A stretch of 64,000 bases of DNA from Darksidea phi (taxonomy: Eukaryota; Ascomycota; Dothideomycetes; Pleosporales; Lentitheciaceae), in contig JASJFT010000089.1 of assembly GCA_030770425.1 (NCBI GenBank), positions 62,001 through 126,000 of the forward strand, read 5' to 3'. The position numbers and the translations under genes are program-made. Numbering within the stretch: position 1 is the stretch's first letter; each line of letters begins with the position of its first letter. Below, one piece after another: positions 44,473-45,021 of the stretch. The notes under the pieces are model-generated. The model did not search any database and was not told the DNA's origin. It saw only the letters and a list, made by a program, of their open reading frames with translations.

Positions 44473-45021
44473 ATGTCTGACGAGGAGACTGAGACTAAGC
44501 CCTTCAAGTTCGTCACTGGTATGGCCATCATTGCTGCGCAGCTTCCTAGATATCCGAGCTAAGCTAACCTTACTTCGCAGCCGGTACGCCACCCTTTCAA
44601 GCTCCCAGCAGCCCCCGCAAGCTCCCTCACGCGATGAGGACCTTTTTGATATCCCGCAAAGGAGGACGCTGACCGGTTGGTCGTATTCTAGGCTTTGACG
44701 CCCGCTTCCCGAACCAAAATCAGACCAAGCACTGCTGGCAGAACTACGTCGACTACCACAAGTGCATCCTTGCCAAAGGCGAAGACTTTGCCCCCTGCCG
44801 CCAGGTACATTACAACCCTTTCCGAAAAGGACTATGGAAAGTGCGGACCCTAATGGATATAGTTCTACCTGGCCTACCGCTCCCTTTGCCCGAGCGGCTG
44901 GACAGCACGATGGGACGACCAGCGCGGTACGTACTCCCCCACTTGATAATAGGAGAACACAAGGACAGGACTAACAACCACTACAGAGAAGGGCAATTTC
45001 CCGTGCAAGCTCGACCAGTAG
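44473..45021 (+). CDS. COX12: Cytochrome c oxidase subunit 6b (Cox12)
   Basis: Exons 44473-44518, 44581-44583 (3 nt), 44692-44804, 44863-44926 and 44987-45021, giving 86 aa. Cox12 sits on the intermembrane-space side of complex IV and is imported by the Mia40 pathway through twin-Cys motifs, visible here as [11 protein letters not shown] (CX9C) and [12 protein letters not shown] (CX10C). The rest is typical: [20 protein letters not shown] and [20 protein letters not shown]. The 3-nt exon CCG lies between a good acceptor (CTAACCTTACTTCGCAG) and a GTACGC donor; including it gives VTAGFDARF, which aligns with TVGFDARF of yeast Cox12, while skipping it gives VTGFDARF (85 aa). Both keep frame, so transcript data must decide. 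Confidence 0.93.

Follow-up and report, generated by a model that had tools for sequence, protein, structure and literature searches.

A probable one-codon internal exon in the COX12 gene of Darksidea phi

Does the COX12 gene of Darksidea phi contain an internal exon of only three nucleotides? The gene occupies positions 44473-45021 of the forward strand of the window, a 64,000-nt stretch of contig JASJFT010000089.1 (assembly GCA_030770425.1), and a first-pass annotation made from the letters alone had proposed that the bases CCG at 44581..44583 form an exon of their own. The predicted product is Cox12, cytochrome c oxidase subunit 12/6b. Exon 3 alone matches PF02297 (COX12/COX6B) with 51 bits against a cut-off of 26, and the best solved-structure match is a chain named Cytochrome c oxidase subunit 12 (E 3e-36). 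Among the matches listed, the closest genome proteins are those of Lentithecium (94% identical), which a lineage look-up places in Pleosporales, and Pleomassaria (93%). Among the best candidates scored, the same genome has one other PF02297 match (L001, 1432-1851 of contig C1), which lacks the FDARFP arm. Its frame was read by eye, and we take this short gene to resemble the assembly factor Coa6. It was considered as a COX12 paralogue for comparing gene structure, and rejected as Coa6-like and without the FDARFP arm. One scan each of a collection of viral contigs and of one of bacterial and archaeal contigs confirmed no relative.

The proposed gene has five exons, all on the plus strand. The coding part of exon 1 (44473..44518) ends in phase 1 after ...GTC ACT G, and is followed by intron 1 (44519..44580, 62 nt), which runs from GTATGG to CTTCGCAG and has its branch site CTAAC at 44564-44568, with the branch A at 44567 and 13 nt of intron beyond it. 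The candidate exon CCG (44581..44583) is in phase 1 on both sides. Intron 2 (44584..44691, 108 nt) runs from GTACGC to TATTCTAG, with a branch site CTGAC at 44669-44673 (context GCTGACC, A at 44672). Exon 3 (44692..44804) starts with GC TTT GAC, the first base of its first Gly codon coming from the preceding exon. Intron 3 (44805..44862, 58 nt) has a low splice-site score, and its junction fits the listed orthologous proteins. Exon 4 (44863..44926), intron 4 (44927..44986, 60 nt) and exon 5 with the stop codon (44987..45021) complete the gene.

The local sequence is as the first-pass annotation had described it. CCG lies directly 3' of ...GCTAACCTTACTTCGCAG and directly 5' of GTACGC, and the 173-nt interval between exon 1 and exon 3 has GTATGG at its start, CTTCGCAG-CCG-GTACGC in its middle and TATTCTAG at its end. 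When included, CCG completes a GCC codon (Ala) and supplies the first G of GGC (Gly), giving a coding sequence of 261 nt including the stop codon, a protein of 86 amino acids and the sequence VTAGFDARF. When it is skipped, the coding sequence is 258 nt and reads VTGFDARF, so that both products are in frame, as had been claimed. Retention of intron 1 or of intron 2 leads to an in-frame stop; both must therefore be removed, either singly or as one piece.

Removal as one piece is what one competing reading says: CCG would be a decoy inside a single 173-nt intron (44519 to 44691), and mature Cox12 would be one residue shorter, with VTGFDARF. To weigh the splice signals, matrices for donor, branch and acceptor were learnt ab initio from 264 kb of unannotated sequence of the same genome (the window and 20 further stretches). 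A looser first matrix drifted to 244 candidates of mixed quality, and was replaced by a strict set of 79 introns. Their median length was 61 nt and their 90th percentile 117 nt, with an upper limit of 130 nt set on candidates. With the strict matrix, the branch and acceptor of intron 1 scored 14.1 bits and donor 2 scored 8.4. The acceptor, which the first-pass annotation had called excellent, is good, and so is donor 2, but donor 1 (GTATGG), at the far end of intron 1, is weak (1.8 bits with the strict matrix). Its low score is due to G at +6, a base found there in 0 of the 79 training introns, a set that was seeded with a T/C consensus at this position. For core genes of Fusarium, PMC5677156 gives 4% for G at +6 and 91% for a CTRAY branch.

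On the looser, noisier matrix, donor 1 was mid-range (45th percentile of 244) and COX12 intron 3 had the lowest score; the scores thus separate sites only roughly. Total scores with the strict matrix were 15.95 for intron 1, 21.6 for intron 2, 12.9 for intron 3 and 24.9 for intron 4. The single skipping intron scored 15.04, close to intron 1, which, like the open frame of the skip product, favours the decoy reading. The length of 173 nt is a weak argument against it, since the training introns were limited to 130 nt.

Whether CCG could be a chance product was tested by a shuffle control, in which the interval was shuffled 20,000 times with dinucleotides preserved; donor 1 and the final 30 nt stayed unchanged. 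The 173-nt interval itself contains a single AGNNNGT. Of the 20,000 shuffles, 1,050 had any such pattern that left introns of at least 40 nt on either side, and none of the 20,000 reached the observed acceptor-plus-branch and donor scores jointly, whether the exon length was set to 3 or to any of 0, 3, 6, 9 and 12. A site pair of this quality embedded in the interval argues against a decoy.

The positions of the splice dinucleotides also bear on a third arrangement, in which the interval would be a stwintron, where one intron interrupts a splice signal of a second, rather than two introns around an exon. Stwintrons have been described in Pezizomycotina in the literature. In the present interval, GT occurs only at 44519, 44584, 44676, 44680 and 44683, so no internal intron starts within donor 1. 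The penultimate AG ends at 44664, which leaves no internal intron that could end within the acceptor. An intron nested in the branch site is compatible with these positions, but would yield the skip product. We consider a stwintron extremely unlikely here, the least probable of the readings weighed.

The reading with two introns around CCG predicts two residues between the N-terminal arm and the FDARF motif, and this spacing was compared across fungi. The best 120 of 530, 440 and 582 matches, respectively, from three protein searches gave 220 distinct proteins. These comprised 136 with an exon-1 anchor (PFK[FL]V[TS] or PFKFIT), 72 from outside Pezizomycotina, an assignment made by reading names and sequence. 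The remaining 12 were Pezizomycotina-like models that lack the anchor, and entered neither count. The linker was counted from the anchor to the xDARF motif.

Outside Pezizomycotina, T and FD were separated by two residues in 71 of the 72 listed proteins, most often by AG (48) or VG (9). The sole exception (P0181) is missing its N terminus. The solved chains read TVGFDARF, and we take them to be from yeast. The spacing argument of the first-pass annotation, which had compared VTAGFDARF with the yeast protein, was thus borne out. Given this outgroup spacing, the two-residue linker looks like the ancestral state, from which the skip product would have lost one residue; this counts against the decoy reading. 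Four basidiomycete COX12 models (P0154, P0175, P0186 and P0197) break just after TAGFD or TVGFD, which suggests another intron mishandled by gene finders a few residues downstream.

Gene models from relatives, taken as representatives of 90%-identity clusters, were much less uniform. Among the 121 listed models with the anchor, 23 had two residues (20 AG, 3 GG), 26 had one residue and thus the skip form, 69 carried an insert, and 3 ran on after AG and broke. In all, 98 of 121 deviate from the two-residue form at the microexon site, in agreement with the forecast that gene finders would miss such an exon. With the anchor defined slightly differently, an earlier tally of 130 non-environmental models had given 24 with a two-residue linker, 24 with a single residue, 68 with longer linkers and 14 without the anchor. 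The spot that is difficult in Darksidea phi COX12 is difficult for gene finders in its relatives too. The 26 models with the skip form could be counted in favour of the decoy reading.

Proteins solely from environmental assemblies (n = 15; merc 4, jgi 9, lgn 2) offer a separate view, as we presume that the merc, jgi and lgn proteins for the most part derive from transcripts or lack both introns. The linker had two residues in all 15 (13 AG, 2 VG), and the skip form was found in none of them. The environmental proteins agree on the codon-including form, against the 26 models that skip, and we regard a decoy as very unlikely. Two proteins, P0058 and P0111, read through a downstream intron; they may represent genomic DNA that lacks the two introns, with the codon kept even so. 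P0001 is compromised by an internal duplication.

The same proteins bear on whether CCG is a regulated cassette exon, with both forms of Cox12 made and functionally different. The first-pass annotation had raised an alternative event, and the part of this that holds is that both forms are in frame. The environmental proteins, of which 0 of 15 skip, offer nothing in its favour, though they say little about Darksidea phi itself. The weak donor 1 would suit a cassette exon, as would precedents described in the parts of the sources consulted, namely codon-sized alternative microexons in Tuber nank (PMC4986451) and a 3-bp alternative exon in Drosophila hth (PMC7392893). The skip forms observed here, however, all occur in gene models, where skipping is an expected error. 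Regulated inclusion is very unlikely in our judgement, if slightly less so than a decoy.

With complete 3' and 5' splice signals on both sides of CCG (the far donor of the upstream intron being weak), and with a conserved in-frame coding context (two-residue spacing in 15/15 environmental and 71/72 outgroup proteins, and in 23/121 gene models), CCG is very probably a real internal exon of COX12, 3 nt long and normally included. Its inclusion in the mRNA of Darksidea phi itself is what we infer from these comparisons.

If this reading is right, the faulty gene models should carry traces of the splice sites that they mishandle. A model that accepts the acceptor of intron 1 and cannot use a 3-nt exon would read on through GCC GGT ANG, that is, Ala-Gly followed by K, M, T or R. 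One of these residues came next in 28 of the 28 models that start with AG and run on (25 inserts and 3 broken models), against a background of 0.203. In an earlier count of 25 models the residue after AG fitted in 25/25, compared with 3 to 9 of 23 to 25 at the nine following positions. At the other end of an insert, reading through a YAG acceptor requires that the residue before G can have a codon ending in YA. Such a codon was possible in 10 of 10 AG-inserts with at least 10 linker residues and ending in G (background 0.346); the other 15 of the 25 unbroken AG-inserts fell outside this test owing to their ending or length.

Inserts of the form G...AG (n = 10) fitted the acceptor rule in 8 cases. 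In the six of more than 11 residues, both ends fitted; these inserts imply 42 to 96 nt of extra sequence and resemble a retained intron 1. The two inserts of this form from the closest relatives, P0002 and P0003, break the acceptor rule; at five residues they are too short for a retained intron. Further models fall outside the pattern: 7 of 29 inserts starting with G have no donor-like second residue, 15 of 69 inserts start with neither AG nor G, and several implied insert lengths (30, 39 and 42 nt) are too short for whole introns. These residue tests were framed after the listings had been seen, and the species counted are related and hence dependent, so the counts are given more weight than any probability. 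In Darksidea phi, the start of intron 2 past the donor (44584-44594) resembles what the read-through models of several relatives imply (A-G-T/M-P), and conservation may extend past donor 2.

Some pairs of proteins are instructive. The environmental protein P0013 shares 84 of its 88 residues with the Lecanora helva model P0083, which has 22 extra codons exactly at the microexon site. In Verticillium longisporum, one protein (P0085) skips, and another (P0119) reads VTAG and then continues through the donor; P0085 thus needs a donor before the codon, and P0119 a donor-like site after it. A similar pair is found in Aspergillus, where A. hancockii P0135 skips and A. flavus P0134 reads through.

A lineage look-up of five species placed one each in Dothideomycetes, Lecanoromycetes, Sordariomycetes, Orbiliomycetes and Leotiomycetes, and we take Aspergillus to represent Eurotiomycetes. 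The one Orbiliomycetes model (Dactylella) showed no clear fit to any form. Choiromyces and Ascobolus, which we assume to be Pezizomycetes, had the plain AG form only. The pattern of the models supports a shared microexon structure in five classes, Eurotiomycetes included, a claim that stops short of the whole subphylum.

Three further entries stood out among the matches. Fungal COX12 proteins are listed under Corymbia, a eucalypt (P0068, on a 1,057-bp contig), and under Paucibacter, a bacterium (P0146, on a 374-bp contig), and look like contamination. Parastagonospora nodorum P0201, named "cytochrome c oxidase subunit 12 isoform B", has a different N terminus before GFDARF, which may stem from the annotation problem described here or from a genuine second start.

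We propose that two ordinary phase-1 GT-AG introns flank one codon's worth of sequence, and that intron definition would act on each of them, using the donor, branch point and acceptor that belong to it. A 3-nt exon can hardly hold the factors of an acceptor and of a donor together, so the introns would most likely be removed in succession, and CCG would already be attached to one flanking exon when the second intron is excised. In the resulting protein, Ala-Gly would separate the N-terminal arm from the conserved FDARFP motif, as two residues do in other fungi. A more speculative extension is that the one-codon exon and its two phase-1 introns predate the split of several filamentous ascomycete classes and have been kept as a sensor of splicing or growth state. 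Slack splicing would then lead either to skipping, with the N-terminal arm of Cox12 one residue short, or to retention, with an early stop, and would in this way tune complex IV. We think this improbable as a whole, though somewhat less so than regulated inclusion with two functional forms.

A search of open PubMed Central, screened largely by titles and the beginnings of abstracts, found no paper on a COX12 microexon. In the Fusarium intron paper PMC5677156, a passage search for microexons and for cytochrome c oxidase gave no hit. The COX12 exon is newly described here, and codon-sized microexons as such are already known, Tuber included. It is notable as an apparently old, normally included exon of a core gene that is misread in most of the listed gene models. 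If confirmed, this exon of a core respiratory gene would rank with the shortest reported from fungi, and would provide a natural test of how the spliceosome deals with an exon to which exon definition cannot apply. With 98 of 121 listed models off, the locus is well suited for benchmarking gene finders and spliced aligners.

The first-pass annotation had placed exons this short at the limit of what a spliceosome can define, a view that does not agree with the 1-nt exons of plants and the 3-bp exon of Drosophila described in the parts of PMC8831610 and PMC7392893 consulted. Other short exons named in such excerpts are the 3-nt exons cited for mouse Ncam and Drosophila TnT (PMC8042270) and exons down to 6 bp in P450 genes of Phanerochaete (PMC1184071). 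In filamentous fungi, functional microexons were previously undescribed according to the excerpted text of a 2024 paper that reports one of 20 nt, in Trichoderma Xlr2 (PMC11121469). Like the COX12 exon, it is a Pezizomycotina microexon missed by the original gene annotation; unlike the 3-nt COX12 exon, its length is not a multiple of three and its inclusion is glucose-dependent. The conserved 3-bp exon of Drosophila homothorax (PMC7392893, in part) is likewise exactly one codon, but is an alternative to an overlapping 48-bp exon and belongs to an animal regulatory gene. A further parallel is found in the nank genes of Tuber melanosporum, a filamentous ascomycete, which have codon-sized, alternatively spliced microexons (Iotti et al. 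2012, as cited in the excerpt of PMC4986451). The Tuber exons are multiple and alternative, and are presented as a mechanism of diversification, whereas the COX12 exon is single, apparently always included and part of a core respiratory gene. In gene type and history, the 1-nt exons of plant APC11 and VPS55 (PMC8831610, in part) are comparable: each is a tiny, old coding exon between two introns of a conserved housekeeping gene, and is missing from the reference annotations. The plant exons are 1 nt long and have been validated by RNA-seq and RT-PCR, whereas the COX12 exon is 3 nt long, fungal and predicted from sequence.
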